Below, one piece after another: positions 28,064 to 34,968 of a stretch of DNA of 64,000 nt. Source of the stretch: Fusobacteriota bacterium (GTDB lineage: Bacteria > Bacillota > TC1); the NCBI GenBank assembly GCA_009773805.1, contig WTXA01000001.1, forward strand, positions 620,001 through 684,000, in the 5' to 3' direction. The stretch's first letter is position 1. Each line of letters opens with the position of its first letter. The notes under the pieces were generated by a model. It was not told where the DNA came from and made no database searches. It saw nothing but the letters and a program-made list of their open reading frames with translations. The translations under genes were made by a program, and so were the position numbers.

Positions 28064-28915
28064 TTAAAAATTTTGATTTACTGACTTATACCATACATTC
28101 ATGCTTTCGATTTCACCGGCTATATTAGTATTATTGACTAATGTTCCGGCATAGGTATATTTATTATTGCTGAAAGTCTTATTCATCCCGATTGATTTTG
28201 CCCTGGCAATAGTAAAGTAGGTAAGAATATCCTTTTCTTTAAGATCTTTTTCCATAGCTTCTAATAGTTGTCCAGCCAAACCCTGTTGACGATAATCTTG
28301 TAAAACTCCAAAGTCGGTTAGTTCTGCATAATTACTATCATAGTCACACTCTGCAGATGCAATAGCAACCAACTTGCCCTTTATTCTTACACCATAGTAG
28401 TCAACTTGTTCGTGCATAGTTATTGCTATATAATCCTGATTAGTTATAGGAAAAGGATATGACTCAAAAACCTGACTATACAATTGGATCATATCAGTAA
28501 TATCTTCATTAGTCATCTTTTCAATTTTTCTAATTTTAATTTCTCTTTTTTCTTTTTTGCTCTTTTTGTTAACTTTCAAGGATTCATCAAGTATTTCATC
28601 AATATAATCCTTGTTTTTATCAATTCTTCTAGCCTCATCATAATACTTGCACATAAAATATCCAGTTTCAACACCATGAAACATATCAGGTATTTGAGCC
28701 TCCTCAATATAGTCATTGGCAATAAATTCTTTAACACTTCTTTCAGGTACTTTGACAATTATCTTCGTATATTCATTTGATCTTGCCAAATTCTCCACTA
28801 TCTCTATAATTTTGCTAGTATTCTTAGAATCCAATGACATAATATAGACCCTATTACTTAATTCCCCATGTTGAATTGATGTATTCTCAATATTATCAAT
28901 CTTATCAAAGCTCAT
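28064..28915 (-). CDS. ablB: Beta-lysine N6-acetyltransferase
   Basis: A 283-aa enzyme acetylating the epsilon-amino group of beta-lysine to give N-epsilon-acetyl-beta-lysine, a compatible solute. The C-terminal half is a GNAT domain ([19 protein letters not shown], the acetyl-CoA loop); the N-terminal half is the family-specific domain ([34 protein letters not shown]). Start ATG 28915 has GGAGG six bases upstream and lies inside the end of ablA, indicating translational coupling. It must work on the product of AblA. Confidence 0.92.
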
Positions 28916-30211
28916 TCTTTTCCTCCTCACTAGGTGTTAGTGTAATCATTTCATCAAAGTTGGCTAATAGTTTAGCAACTCCAGTTGCTTTAGATTCTTC
29001 ATCATCAATTTTTAAGACATTTTGCAAACTACAATCATCACAATGAAGATCACAGTTATGACTTGAGTAGTTATCAGGCTCATGATAGGTTGTTATTACC
29101 CCTTCATAATTTCTTAATATTACCTTGTTATCAGACCAAGAGATAAGATAATTGGGCATTACTGGTATCTTGCCACCACCTCCAGGTGCATCTATAACAT
29201 AAGTAGGAACCGCAAAACCACTTGTATGGCCCCTAAGACTTTCCATGATTTCAATACCCTTACCAACAGATGTTCTAAAATGTTCTAGCCCTTCTGATAA
29301 ATCACACTGGTAAATATAGTATGGTCTTACTCTATTTGCAGTTAGTTGATGTACTAATCTCCTCATTATTAGAGGACAATCATTCACCCCTGCTAGAAGA
29401 ACAGATTGATTACCAAGAGGTATACCGGCAAAGGCTAATTTTTTTAGAGCTACTTTAGAATCTGTGGTTATTTCTCTTGGATGATTAAAGTGTGTATTTA
29501 TCCATATAGTACCATGTTTTTTTAATATTTCCACTAATTTATCCGTTATTCTAAAAGGCAGAACAACGGGAGTTCTTGTTCCAATTCTAATAATTTCAAC
29601 ATGTTTTATCTTTTCTAATTCTCCAAGCAACCAGTCAATTAATTCATCACTAAGTAAGAAAGGGTCGCCACCAGATAAGAGAACATCTCTTACCTCAGGT
29701 GTATTTTTTATGTATTCAATTCCTTTTTTCATTTGTTCCTTGGATGGTATGTAATCATTATCTCCTACTTTTCTTTTTCTAGTACAGTGACGACAATACA
29801 TAGCACAAACATTACTAACATGAAATAAGACTCTATCTGGGTAACGGTGCGTTATACCTTCTACAGGACTATCCTTATCTTCAGCTAGGGGATCTTTCAT
29901 ATCATAATCTGCGATTTCCAACTCTCTTACATTAGCAAAGGCTTGCTTGAAAACAGGATCATTTTGATAATCCTGTTTATTAATCAAAGATAAATAGTAA
30001 GGTGTGATAGACATAGGAAATTGATCTATCGTATGTTCAATTTTTTTTTTTCATTTTCACTAAAGCTGATTCCTAGGATTTGTTCCACTTGTTGTACTGT
30101 TTTGATTGAATTTTTAGTTTGCCATTTCCAATTCTGCCATTTTTTAATTTGGTCTTCTAAAAGACTTTCCTTGTCAATCTTTCCCTTGGTTATTAATATT
30201 AATTCATCCAT
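28905..30211 (-). pseudogene. ablA: Lysine 2,3-aminomutase, split by a one-base frameshift in an A run
   Basis: Radical SAM/PLP enzyme converting L-lysine to beta-lysine. The main frame (from 30014) has CAMYCRHC cluster cysteines, the PLP lysine in APGGGGK, and the two aspartates that bind lysine ([21 protein letters not shown]). The N-terminal part lies in another frame from ATG 30211 (GGAGG upstream): residues WQNWKWQTKNSIKTVQQVEQ are typical of this enzyme's start. The frames meet at 11 consecutive A (coding strand, 30041-30051); a twelfth A restores one protein of 435 aa, the normal size. Without it, translation from the ATG at 30014 lacks the N-terminal segment. Slippage, mutation and assembly error are all possible. 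Confidence 0.88.
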
Positions 30212-30231
30212 TTCTTCCTCCTTTAATAAAA

Positions 30232-30266
30232 AAACACTCTAACTCTTAAATAGAGTTAGAGTGTTT
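30232..30266 (-). terminator. Attenuator-like terminator before ablA
   Basis: A perfect 15-bp stem (AAACACTCTAACTCT / AGAGTTAGAGTGTTT) with a 5-base loop, followed by a T run on the minus strand, only eight bases before the AAAGGAGG of ablA. No minus-strand gene lies upstream, so it is not terminating a neighbour. Confidence 0.85.
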
Positions 30267-30503
30267 AAGCTTACCTGTAATTACAGTTCACCTTATACCA
30301 TAACAATCGTATAGTATAGATTATCACCTTTCGATCCTAATCAAACCCCAGTTCTATAGTCCATTTTTCAACAGAAATTTCTGAATTTATATGGTAGACT
30401 TACTCCATCCCACATTCTTTAGAAGAACACGTAAAGAAACTCGCAAACCTCTTACTCAATCTGTTTACTTCAAGCTACTAGTATGGTTATTTTTCAATAT
30501 CCT
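30267..30503 (-). ncRNA. Untranslated leader of ablAB, candidate riboswitch
   Basis: About 235 nt transcribed from the strong promoter at 30510-30538 before the attenuator hairpin. It holds several possible helices, e.g. TATAC...GTATA around 30295-30320 and CTGTAATTACAG near 30276-30287, and purine-rich unpaired words (AGAGG, GAGTA, GAAAGG). I do not find T-box, SAM, TPP, FMN or c-di-AMP signatures. Some words recall the lysine riboswitch but its GCCGAAG core is missing. No sizeable ORF fills it. The identity is unknown. Confidence 0.5.
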
Positions 30504-30509
30504 TCTATA

Positions 30510-30538
30510 ATTATAAAATATTTCAACTTTTTTGTCAA
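30510..30538 (-). promoter_or_regulatory. Consensus sigma-A promoter of ablAB
   Basis: TTGACA (30538-30533) and TATAAT (30515-30510) with a 17-bp spacer: a perfect match in both boxes. Predicted start near 30503, giving a leader of about 290 nt before ablA. Confidence 0.88.
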
Positions 30539-30715: not shown

Positions 30716-32080
30716 ATGATTGATGTACTAATTCAAAACGCCACAATTGTAACTGTCAATAAAGGGGAAATTCTAAAAAATAGCTCAATTGCTATTGATG
30801 GAGATAGAATTATAGATATAGGTGACAGCAAAGAACTTTCATTAAAATACCCGGAAGTTAAAAAATTGATTGACGCTAGTGAGAAAGTTGTTTTCCCTGG
30901 ATTCGTCAACACCCACAACCACCTATTCCAAACATTATTTAAAGGTTTAGGAGATGATATGGTCATTGCAGATTGGCTTAAAAAAGTGGCTTATCCACTT
31001 TCAACCAATCTTACAGAAGAACTAGCCTATAAGGGTGCTATGCTTGGGCTTATGGAAAGCCTGCATAGTGGCATAACAACATCTTTAGACTATATGTATG
31101 CCCATCCAGTTAAAAACCTGTCTGACGCAGTAATAAAGGCTATGAACGACCTTAAAGTCAGAGGTATCTATGCAAGAGGTTTTCTAAATAGCGGAGAATC
31201 ACATGGAGCACAAAAAGCACTATTTGAAACACCAGAAGAAGTTGAAAAGGACTTTAGAGAACTAGTAGCTAAAACCAAGGACACCAATAATGGCAGAATC
31301 AAAATTTGGCTTGCTCCTTCTAACCCTTGGGCAAATACTAAGGAAATGTTATTAAAGACTTGGGAACTTGCCAAGGAATTTAATACTGGCTATACAATCC
31401 ATATTTCTGAAACTGAAGCTCCAAGAAGATTCACCAAGGAAATTCATGGATATGATGATACTGAGTTACTTGAAGTTTTAGGTATTGTTGGACCAAATGT
31501 ACTATGTGTTCATTGTGTTGCAATCAACGATAAGGATATTGCGATGTTCAAGAAATATGATATGAAAATATCTCATAACCCTGTTTGTAATATGTATCTT
31601 GCTTCAGGTGTTGCGCCTGTACCTCAAATGATCAATGAAGGTATTACAGTTAGTATAGGACTTGATGGTGCTGCCAGCAATAATTCACAAGATATGATTG
31701 AATCAATGAAAACTACAGCCTTACTTCATAAAGTAAGTTCTAGAGATCCAAAAATTCTATCTGCTCAGAAAGTACTGGAGATGGCCACTATTGATGGTGC
31801 TAAGGCTTTAGGTATGGAAAAGGAAATCGGCTCTATTGAAATAGGTAAGAAAGCTGACCTAGTTATATTCAATCCTAACCTGGCTTCTAAATCTACCCCA
31901 ATGCACAATCCTATTTCTACTCTAGTTTATTCATCATCAGAAAGAAATGTTGAGACAGTTCTAGTTGATGGTAACATAGTTCTAGAAGATGGTAAGATTA
32001 TTGGTATTGATGAAAGAGCCTTCTGCAAGGATGCACAAGAAATTTCATTAGAATTAGCCAAAAGAGTATACCCAAAGTAA
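30716..32080 (+). CDS. Amidohydrolase of the guanine deaminase / TRZ-ATZ group
   Basis: A 454-aa metal-dependent aminohydrolase. Metal ligands: H67 and H69 (FVNTHNHLFQTL), a His in YTIHISETE, a His in VLCVHCVAI and the catalytic Asp in SIGLDGAASNN. The C-terminal beta-sandwich (GSIEIGKKADLVIF) is standard. NTHNHLFQTLFKGLGDDM with ADWL resembles 8-oxoguanine deaminase and chlorohydrolase-like enzymes; methylthioadenosine/S-adenosylhomocysteine deaminase is also possible. A nearby molybdenum hydroxylase and the cytosine-deaminase-like gene at 62.3 kb suggest nucleobase metabolism. AAAGGAG precedes ATG 30716; it stands alone with its own promoter and terminator. Confidence 0.85.
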   Translation: MIDVLIQNATIVTVNKGEILKNSSIAIDGDRIIDIGDSKELSLKYPEVKKLIDASEKVVFPGFVNTHNHLFQTLFKGLGDDMVIADWLKKVAYPLSTNLTEELAYKGAMLGLMESLHSGITTSLDYMYAHPVKNLSDAVIKAMNDLKVRGIYARGFLNSGESHGAQKALFETPEEVEKDFRELVAKTKDTNNGRIKIWLAPSNPWANTKEMLLKTWELAKEFNTGYTIHISETEAPRRFTKEIHGYDDTELLEVLGIVGPNVLCVHCVAINDKDIAMFKKYDMKISHNPVCNMYLASGVAPVPQMINEGITVSIGLDGAASNNSQDMIESMKTTALLHKVSSRDPKILSAQKVLEMATIDGAKALGMEKEIGSIEIGKKADLVIFNPNLASKSTPMHNPISTLVYSSSERNVETVLVDGNIVLEDGKIIGIDERAFCKDAQEISLELAKRVYPK

Positions 32081-32163: not shown

Positions 32164-32811
32164 TTATTCAAATAACCAATTAGGAGAAAAATTATCAAAT
32201 ATTTTTTTAAACCCTTTTATAAAATAGCCTGTTGAAACTGCTACAACAACTGTTGCTATACCAACTCCTCGAACCTCTCCGAATACTAATAGGGATAAAG
32301 TTACTCCAACTAGCATAATTGAGACATCCATCATAATCTTAACATTCCCGAATTTAGTCTTAAACCTTTCAGCAATAGCCATTACAAGACCTTCACAAGG
32401 ATTAATTATCACATCAGCAACAATCTGCATGTATATTCCTAAAGCCATCAATAGACAACCGACAATAAGTAATAGCAATTGGCTAACAATAGAACCTGGT
32501 ACTAGATTACTAAATACAGCAAAACCAAAATCAATAAAATAACCAAAGAAGGGAACAATCAATATTTGCAATAGTATGTCTCTATTAAAGCCTTTTCTTT
32601 GTATTAGTATTTCTATTAGCACAAAACTTAGGTTTAATATGTTGGCTACCATGCCAAAGGATATTGGAAAACCTCCTGATAATACCAATGGTATCACTGA
32701 TATTGGAGTGGTTCCAAGTCCCATCTTGGTGCTTAGGGCTATACCTAGACCAATTAGTAAAATGCCAGTAAGAAATATTACATAGCGTAAAATCATTTTT
32801 GTTTTAAACAT
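32164..32811 (-). CDS. YczE/YitT-type membrane protein
   Basis: A 215-aa protein with five or six helices. The motifs GLGIALSTKMGLGTTPISVIPL (residues about 18-39) and ADVIINPCEGLVMAIAERF (about 133-150) are typical of the COG2364 / DUF6198 group. The function of these proteins is not established; some have been linked to transport or antibiotic production. ATG 32811 is chosen over 32826 because GAGG lies six bases upstream. It stands alone, after the relBE terminator. Confidence 0.8.
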   Translation of the reverse strand: MFKTKMILRYVIFLTGILLIGLGIALSTKMGLGTTPISVIPLVLSGGFPISFGMVANILNLSFVLIEILIQRKGFNRDILLQILIVPFFGYFIDFGFAVFSNLVPGSIVSQLLLLIVGCLLMALGIYMQIVADVIINPCEGLVMAIAERFKTKFGNVKIMMDVSIMLVGVTLSLLVFGEVRGVGIATVVVAVSTGYFIKGFKKIFDNFSPNWLFE

Positions 32812-32862
32812 AATTACCTCTTTCATAAATATTTTAATATTGGAAACCTAGAAAATTTCATA

Positions 32863-32983: not shown

Positions 32984-33250
32984 TTATTCATAGATATCAC
33001 TTCTATGACCAACTTCAACTATAGTAATTGTTACTAATCCATCATCAATTTTTGCTAATATCCTATAATTACCAACCATATACCTCCATTTATCATTCAT
33101 GCTCCCTCGAAGTGCCTTCCCAAAAAGTCTGGGATTCTCACAACCCACAAGCTTGGTATCAATATATGAAATAATGAACGACAAGATACCCTTATCAAGT
33201 TTTTTCAATTGCCTTACAGCGTACGTGGTATATTCCACCCGATACTTCAT
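32984..33250 (-). CDS. relE: RelE/ParE-family toxin
   Basis: An 88-aa mRNA-interferase-type toxin of the RelE superfamily. The pattern YRVEYTTYAVRQLKKLDK, then ENPRLFGKALRGSMNDKWRYMVGNYRILAKI and a final EVGHRSDIYE is characteristic, including the basic residues needed for activity. It overlaps the antitoxin gene by four bases (ATGA), the usual coupling. The pair lies between the molybdenum hydroxylase operon and the YitT-like gene. Confidence 0.92.
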   Translation of the reverse strand: MKYRVEYTTYAVRQLKKLDKGILSFIISYIDTKLVGCENPRLFGKALRGSMNDKWRYMVGNYRILAKIDDGLVTITIVEVGHRSDIYE

Positions 33251-33597: not shown

Positions 33598-34098
33598 TTA
33601 TTTTTTAACTCTACAAACATCATAGACATAATAATCCTTAGCAGCATCCTCTATGGCATCAACTATCTGACTATAACCAGTGCAACGACATAGATTACCA
33701 GAAATCGCAGTCTTTATTTCTTCCCTAGTAGGTTTATCATTAACATCCAAGAAAGCCTTAGCACTCATAACTAAACCAGGAGTACAAAAACCACACTGTA
33801 AGGCACTATGCTCAATAAACTTTTCTTGGAGAATATGAAGCTCTCCATTATCGCCACCTAAACCTTCAATAGTCTCAATAACCTTACCTTCCATAGAAGC
33901 AGCAAGAATCATACAAGAATTTACAGCCTCTCCATCAACAATAACAGTACAAGCCCCACACTCACCAACACCACAACCTTCCTTGGTACCAGTAAGTTCA
34001 AGATTATCTCTAAGAGTATCAAGTAAACGAGCATTAGGCTCAACCAAAATACTTACAACTTCACCATTCACAATCATATTAACATTTATCTTATTCAT
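33598..34098 (-). CDS. Molybdenum hydroxylase [2Fe-2S] subunit
   Basis: The 166-aa small subunit of a xanthine dehydrogenase-family enzyme. The plant-type cluster CGVGECGAC with a later C (residues about 42-62) and the second cluster CGFC...CRC (about 101-137) are intact. It passes electrons from the Mo site to the FAD subunit. Its start is adjacent to the FAD-subunit stop with no gap. Third gene of the operon. Confidence 0.93.
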   Translation of the reverse strand: MNKINVNMIVNGEVVSILVEPNARLLDTLRDNLELTGTKEGCGVGECGACTVIVDGEAVNSCMILAASMEGKVIETIEGLGGDNGELHILQEKFIEHSALQCGFCTPGLVMSAKAFLDVNDKPTREEIKTAISGNLCRCTGYSQIVDAIEDAAKDYYVYDVCRVKK

Positions 34099-34968
34099 TT
34101 ATTCAACCTCCAAAGCTTGACTCAAAGCCCTTGTAGTCAAAGACTCAATAGCAGGCTTCTTAAATTCAGTAGATGGTCGTATTCCAGTACGATTAATCAT
34201 TTCTTCAGACACCTTCTTACCAGCCTCAACCAACAATTCTCTAGTTGGAACCTTACCAAGTAATACATCCTCAGCTATCTTAACCCTGTCAGGAACAGCA
34301 AAAATACAACCAGGAGCTATCCTAACATCACTAACAAAACCCATACTATCTACTACTACAATAACACCAACATTCATCCTAGAAATTGCCAAAGCTTTTC
34401 TTCTTCCTAACTTAAGGAATACCGATTTAGCTTCAGTTGGCATTTTCTTAAAACTAATTTCAGTAATTATCTCATCAACTTTTAATGTAGTCTTATAGGA
34501 ATTGGCAAAAATTGATTTTAATAAAACAGTTCTTTCACCACTAGTACCCACTACCTTAACCTCAGCATCCAAAGCAATCAATGGAGGCACAGGATCAGAA
34601 GCAGGAGAAGCATTACCAATACTACCACCAATCGTTCCCATATTCCTTATTTGAGGAGAGCCTACTGTAGAAGATGCCTCACAGAAAAAAGGAGCATACT
34701 TTTGCAAAATTTTAGATTTAACAATATCAGTATGAGATGACAAAGCACCAATACAAATACTATCTCCATCTTCCTTAATATATTTCATTTCCTTTAAGTG
34801 ACCTATATCAATAATATACTTAATATTAGCCCACTTTTTATCTTCATCACGAATTTGTACCATCAAATCAGTTCCACCAGCAATAACTTTAGCACTATCA
34901 CCATGTAGGGCTAATAGTTCACAAGCTTCTTTCACTGAAGCTGGTCTTAAATAATCATATTTAAACAT
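34099..34968 (-). CDS. Molybdenum hydroxylase FAD-binding subunit
   Basis: A 289-aa medium subunit (CoxM/XdhB type). The FAD motifs VIAGGTDLM (about 30-38) and TVGSPQIRNMGTIGGSIGNASPASD (about 101-125) are complete. It passes electrons to NAD or ferredoxin-type acceptors. Middle gene of the operon: 18 bases after the Mo subunit, directly abutting the Fe-S subunit. Confidence 0.93.
   Translation of the reverse strand: MFKYDYLRPASVKEACELLALHGDSAKVIAGGTDLMVQIRDEDKKWANIKYIIDIGHLKEMKYIKEDGDSICIGALSSHTDIVKSKILQKYAPFFCEASSTVGSPQIRNMGTIGGSIGNASPASDPVPPLIALDAEVKVVGTSGERTVLLKSIFANSYKTTLKVDEIITEISFKKMPTEAKSVFLKLGRRKALAISRMNVGVIVVVDSMGFVSDVRIAPGCIFAVPDRVKIAEDVLLGKVPTRELLVEAGKKVSEEMINRTGIRPSTEFKKPAIESLTTRALSQALEVE

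Follow-up and report, generated by a model that had tools for sequence, protein, structure and literature searches.

How bacteria sense osmotic stress in order to control their genes is a long-standing question, and RNA sensors of such stress are, to our knowledge, few, namely the Na+-I and cyclic di-AMP (c-di-AMP) riboswitches. The Na+-I riboswitch (DUF1646), described as two extended paired substructures, is reported to be an ON switch for osmotic genes in which the core and a terminator are mutually exclusive, and in Dehalobacter it fronts ablA (PMC9337991). The c-di-AMP riboswitch is reported to act as an OFF switch for osmotic genes (PMC9337991). Two further motifs, both orphan candidates, are described with ribosome-site control: proX, with 17 examples chiefly in Spiribacter, and opuB, mostly in Enterobacteriaceae (PMC8632094, PMC11109978). 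The orphan trpB motif occurs in Firmicutes and Fusobacteria with a terminator and amino-acid-type ATP-binding cassette (ABC) transporters (PMC11109978). Here we analyze the leader of an ablA gene in a 64,000-nucleotide stretch of the genome of a Fusobacteriota bacterium (the window; contig WTXA01000001.1, positions 620,001 to 684,000). We argue that this leader probably represents a widespread kind of structured RNA that regulates in cis, a candidate orphan riboswitch for osmoadaptation that would include direct sensing of the riboswitch type.

The leader lies on the minus strand, as do the promoter, RNA core, terminator, and ablAB genes described below. As the preliminary description had said, a perfect promoter, TTGACA-N17-TATAAT (30510–30538, with TTGACA from 30538 and TATAAT to 30510), is followed by a leader of about 290 nt with an intrinsic terminator at its 3' end, just before the ribosome-binding site of ablA. 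The promoter is the only match to consensus at 12 of 12 positions within 4.5 kb, and both its -35 and -10 elements are also found in the sister species G001. The terminator hairpin (30232–30266) has 15 pairs and a loop of 5, followed by a T run at 30231–30225; read directly, the ribosome-binding site AAAGGAGG (30217–30224) starts 7 bases past the terminator stem, and the ablA ATG is at 30211. Since the upstream neighbor (30716–32080) lies on the plus strand, the terminator serves no minus-strand gene upstream, again in line with what had been claimed. The leader is also more stably folded than shuffled sequence (z = -2.5).

At the DNA level, a search for relatives of this leader went no further than two congeners and, in genome G094, the terminator. 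The leader of the sister species is 85% identical although its upstream gene differs, and the RNA is recognizable in other phyla, which shows that the leader is no chance feature. Visual inspection of the sequence ahead of ablA in genomes further removed revealed these words again, up to a final CACTCTAACTCT. From six sequences we built R1, a covariance model limited to the 3' half, which matched in 26 of the 398 genomes of the host phylum; the conserved 5' half, which is absent from R1, is also present at the loci that R1 found. Scanning 85,000 genomes with a sequence pattern, we obtained 55 named loci; all of them score with R1, and their hosts include Acetobacterium, Thermincola, Fusibacter, Fusobacterium mortiferum, Propionigenium maris, Psychrilyobacter, Izimaplasma, metagenome-assembled genomes (MAGs) of Syntrophomonadaceae, and one Spirochaetia MAG, among others. 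With R2, a full covariance model of the core with 214 positions, the window copy matches positions 1–214 (E=4.0e-36 in a search of the genome). Matches to R2 occur in 30/398 genomes of the host phylum and 17/98 of the Propionigenium phylum, and are rare elsewhere (4/245 in the Izimaplasma phylum and 1/198 in the phylum of the Spirochaetia MAG), with three or four copies in some genomes. The weakest match accepted has an E-value of 3.8e-13, and none was listed between there and the cut-off of 1e-3.

One ablA leader, at locus L009 (G093:C3), has no credible match to the core; its terminator keeps a strand, CACCTTAACTCT, that resembles CACTCTAACTCT, possibly a remnant of the RNA.

Mutual information computed over 63 sequences, with no structure assumed, yielded nested canonical helices as its top signals. 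When a structure of 53 pairs in ten helices was scored on an alignment of 42 sequences, 91.1% of the pairs were standard, compared to 70.8% after shuffling, and sliding the partners by one to three columns lowered pairing to 33–48%. In the same alignment there are 538 double-change cells versus 177 in the shuffled data, a level reached in none of 500 shuffles. A second set of 40 sequences, most of them unused before, gave 93.6% paired versus 69.6%. On these comparisons, the core of the ablA leader is almost certainly a real conserved structured RNA. Like the sensor of a riboswitch, it is a conserved, covarying, aptamer-like structured domain in a 5' leader.

The structured RNA spans roughly 200–270 nt and folds into two domains with at least ten helices; in the window, R2 and covariation place the core at 30252–30473. 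Domain I (30370–30477) is an irregular hairpin in which P0 is followed by a GAAGUA/GAAAAA internal loop, P1 (30465–30458 with 30377–30370), an AGUA/GAAA loop, P2a (30451–30450 with 30384–30383), P2 (30448–30444 with 30398–30394), and P3 (30439–30430 with 30412–30403), the loop sequences being conserved. For the closing helix P0, relatives provide covariation support (a permutation test found its third pair canonical in 58 of 63 sequences versus 27 ± 4), and in the window copy the helix is weak. The least certain helix is P2, since its alignment, like that of the stretch separating it from P1, is poor. In domain II, P7 closes a junction of three hairpins: P4 (30319–30342; 30342–30333 with 30328–30319), whose five outer pairs rank with the strongest signals of covariation; P5 (30295–30317; 30317–30312 with 30300–30295); and P6a/P6 (30267–30293), in which P6a (30293–30291 with 30269–30267) and P6 (30287–30284 with 30277–30274) flank a conserved UGA/GAAA internal loop. 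We considered a kink-turn for the tandem-GA internal loop of P6 and dropped it, the bulge being on the wrong side. Four natural short members (L158, L187, L149, and L060) lack much of domain I and keep domain II and the terminator, so that the essential part of the RNA is probably domain II.

The helix that closes domain II links the core to the terminator. The 5' strand of P7, AGAACTGGGGTTT (30343–30355), which would act as the anti-terminator strand, pairs with AAACACTCTAACTCT (30252–30266), and this same stretch forms the 5' arm of the terminator. In the consensus, AGAACTGGGG(C/U)(U)U pairs with A(R)(R)CACTCTAACTCT, so that the invariant strand CACTCTAACTCT is both the 3' side of P7 and part of the terminator's 5' arm; the shared strand falls in a terminator at 76 of 77 nonredundant loci. 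Because the two helices use one strand, the core and the terminator are mutually exclusive. The three inner, variable pairs of P7 (columns 172-294, 173-293, and 174-292) are paired in 42/42 sequences and show compensatory changes, from C-G to U-A and from G-C to A-U, and the pair at columns 171-295 switches from G-C to A-U in L049, L054, L057, and L061. The duplex that each RNA forms with its own P7 partner has a mean energy of -9.33 kcal/mol; exchanging partners among the RNAs gives -8.38 ± 0.165 kcal/mol, and none of 5000 permutations reached the native value. The 5' strand of P7 has diverged in the clade of G064, G102, and G236 and in L185; a regular expression mis-picked or skipped these strands, and the covariance alignment recovers them. 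As a separate observation, L182, L183, L184, and L185 carry an altered shared strand (CACTCTAGTCTC, TACTCTGTTCT) along with a diverged P7 5' strand.

From the sequence evidence, then, the leader has an expression platform that is mutually exclusive with the sensor domain, and P7 and the terminator very probably form a switch. In the window copy, the energy is about -17 kcal/mol for the terminator and about -9 kcal/mol for P7 by itself; the terminator being the stronger, expression of the gene is expected to be off unless the core is stabilized. This anatomy makes it likely that the logic is ON, with stabilization of the core permitting transcription. When the core is stabilized, P7 would hold the shared strand, the terminator would be blocked, and transcription would enter the osmolyte gene; when it is not, the more stable terminator would win.

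To see which genes the RNA may control, we tallied the first downstream gene at 81 nonredundant loci. At 24 of these it is an ABC ATPase, and all 24 match betaine/proline/choline proV models (ProV/OpuA type); CBS domains are found at 23 loci, and the ATPases of L048 and L061, checked individually, exceed the TIGR01186 proV cut-off. A family-3 solute-binding protein (SBP_bac_3) comes first at 20 loci, and that of L059 passes the cut-off for EhuB (ectoine). Other first genes encode a BCCT carrier (16 loci), AblA (13), an amino-acid permease (3), and a GNAT protein (3, one of them AblB-like by reading of the sequence). Plainly osmolyte genes account for about two thirds of the 81 loci. The earlier proposal of a cis-acting leader with a terminator, tied to osmolyte genes, stands, while its restriction to ablAB does not: the same RNA is also found ahead of BCCT carriers, an ectoine-type binding protein, and the ATPases of betaine ABC systems.

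Several other downstream genes are worth recording. In the fusobacterial loci L069, L091, and L093, the RNA lies ahead of APC-type amino acid permeases. Amino-acid-type ABC transporters follow it at L062-L064, L045, L051, L057, L101, L119, and others, a gene context that suggests a role in osmolyte transport. In Fusibacter ferrireducens (L103 / L122), it lies 151 nt ahead of a fusion of a threonine-synthase-like pyridoxal phosphate (PLP) enzyme with a GNAT protein, a candidate new enzyme of osmolyte synthesis.

What stabilizes the core is the least certain step of the proposed mechanism. The cue would be an intracellular signal of high salt, and the likeliest one is a monovalent cation (Na+ or K+) that the conserved loops would bind. 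An ionic or osmotic signal had been suggested in the preliminary description and is plausible. That the RNA binds a ligand directly, as a riboswitch, seems to us the better-than-even choice; the identification of that ligand as Na+ or K+ is a tentative guess from gene context, somewhat short of an even bet. The RNA might also be a new riboswitch class of Bacillota and Fusobacteriota that directly senses intracellular K+, ionic strength, or another general hyperosmotic signal and turns on osmolyte uptake and synthesis, a rather doubtful proposition at present. Several points weigh against a riboswitch for osmoadaptation. The stabilizing factor could be a protein or ionic strength as such. The substrates of the 20 binding-protein operons are uncertain, and an amino-acid-related signal is conceivable, although genes for BCCT and betaine ABC systems do not suit it well. 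In P7, the pairs at columns 168-299 and 170-297 are invariant in alignment A3, so that pairing there is read from complementarity. Finally, the alignment of the second set of sequences (A5) was fitted to the structure, and hence leans toward it, and includes some relatives of A3 members.

Two alternatives accept the structured core and differ in what stabilizes it. In the first, the RNA would be an antiterminator that responds to a protein: its core or P7 would be stabilized by an RNA-binding protein under osmotic regulation, in the manner of LicT/BglG-type systems, with no direct small ligand. The mutual exclusion of P7 and the terminator would serve a protein just as well. Protein-binding antiterminators are usually short, however, and the fixed loops spread over about 200 nt and many helices, shared by distant phyla and placed before varied operons, are typical of aptamers; nor was a linked regulator gene seen, though no systematic search for one was made. 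We regard this explanation as unlikely. Equally unlikely, in our estimate, is physical sensing of ionic strength, water activity, or crowding, in which the core would become more stable with monovalent salt and have no specific site. The osmotic gene context agrees with such a sensor, as does the balance between a weak P7 and a strong terminator, which salt could tip; the conserved unpaired AAGUA, AGUA, GAAA, GAAAAA, and UGA/GAAA sequences, on the other hand, suggest a defined site.

Another set of alternatives would assign the RNA to a known class. With Rfam 15, no family reached its cut-off in the window, the leader included, so that the novelty of the RNA, which a match to a known class would have removed, was preserved; the proposal of a regulatory leader likewise withstood the check on conservation, whose absence would have refuted it. 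Judged by cut-off and by E-value in the window and 28 relatives, the only matches at the RNA are chance ones to terminator hairpins; elsewhere, the same scans found a true tRNA and T-boxes. A divergent Na+-I riboswitch would account for the same type of gene and the same proposed terminator-based ON logic (PMC9337991), and the two RNAs could share a ligand. The Sodium model (RF03071), however, matched in 0 of 12 genomes, 11 of which carry the RNA, while a control genome did match; moreover, that model has 55 positions compared to about 214 here, roughly a fourfold difference in length, and the fold is different, leaving this assignment highly improbable. Weakest of all is attenuation through a leader peptide or through tRNA (T-box), which the position of the terminator immediately before the gene might suggest: no open reading frame of at least 20 amino acids was found on the minus strand of the leader, and T-box (RF00230) had no match at the RNA in the scan that found T-boxes outside it at two loci (L056 and L058).

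A riboswitch candidate for osmoadaptation of this kind would matter for several reasons. One structured RNA joins betaine uptake (through ABC and BCCT systems), an ectoine-type system, and the synthesis of N-epsilon-acetyl-beta-lysine. Its hosts are acetogens, soda-lake anaerobes, and marine fusobacteria; Acetobacterium, Propionigenium maris, and Fusibacter are culturable examples. The size of the RNA and its set of genes also open the question of the ligand to direct testing. The RNA also flags uncharacterized neighbors, such as the Fusibacter PLP/GNAT fusion and the amino-acid-type ABC transporters, as candidate osmolyte genes. If a class that senses K+ or ionic strength proves to be the correct description, it would constitute an RNA osmosensor.

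The genes downstream of the window copy are as follows. ablA (28905–30211), encoding lysine 2,3-aminomutase, scores 679 bits against TIGR03820 (cut-off 525) and contains Pfam LAM_C. It is frameshifted in this assembly, being split into an open reading frame of 61 amino acids (30211–30026) and a second one at 30014–28905, with the break at an A11 homopolymer (30051–30041); the gene is intact in both congeners, and the break may be an assembly error, real slippage, or a pseudogene. Overlapping its end is an ablB-like GNAT acetyltransferase gene (28064–28930), identified by Pfam Acetyltransf_1 and by its position. Upstream, judging by sequence appearance, 30716–32080 and 33598–34968 would encode an SsnA/TrzA-like amidohydrolase and xanthine-dehydrogenase-type subunits, suggesting a cluster for purine or pyrimidine catabolism, and a small putative RelE/ParE-like toxin-type protein lies at 32984–33250 on the minus strand. 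A strong terminator-like hairpin of 18 pairs (32149–32110, minus strand) is found downstream of the minus-strand membrane protein gene at 32164–32826.

Our search of the open literature, which did not extend to subscription papers, preprints, or supplements, turned up no account of this RNA, and the class is apparently undescribed. The lysine riboswitch (L-box), of which the preliminary description saw some words in the leader, is not supported as a relative: ablA does use lysine and a few short words are alike, but the Rfam lysine model had no match in the window leader at E-values up to 10, the fold differs, and most targets are unrelated to lysine. The c-di-AMP riboswitch likewise controls osmotic genes through terminators; its OFF logic is the opposite of the ON logic that we propose here, and its model (ydaO-yuaA) had no match in the window leader (E up to 10) or at relatives. 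The proX, opuB, and trpB motifs differ from the RNA in their published descriptions. proX and opuB resemble it as riboswitch candidates placed before transporters of betaine or compatible solutes (PMC8632094, PMC11109978). The trpB motif resembles it in host groups, transporter type, and use of a terminator, and differs from it in that the ablA-leader RNA has at least ten helices. Closest in working principle is the Na+-I riboswitch, with which the RNA has in common the ablA context, the osmotic genes, and, as we propose, a terminator-based ON logic; the Na+-I genes are mainly ion transporters, whereas the RNA described here stands before genes for betaine transport, BCCT carriers, and solute-binding proteins.
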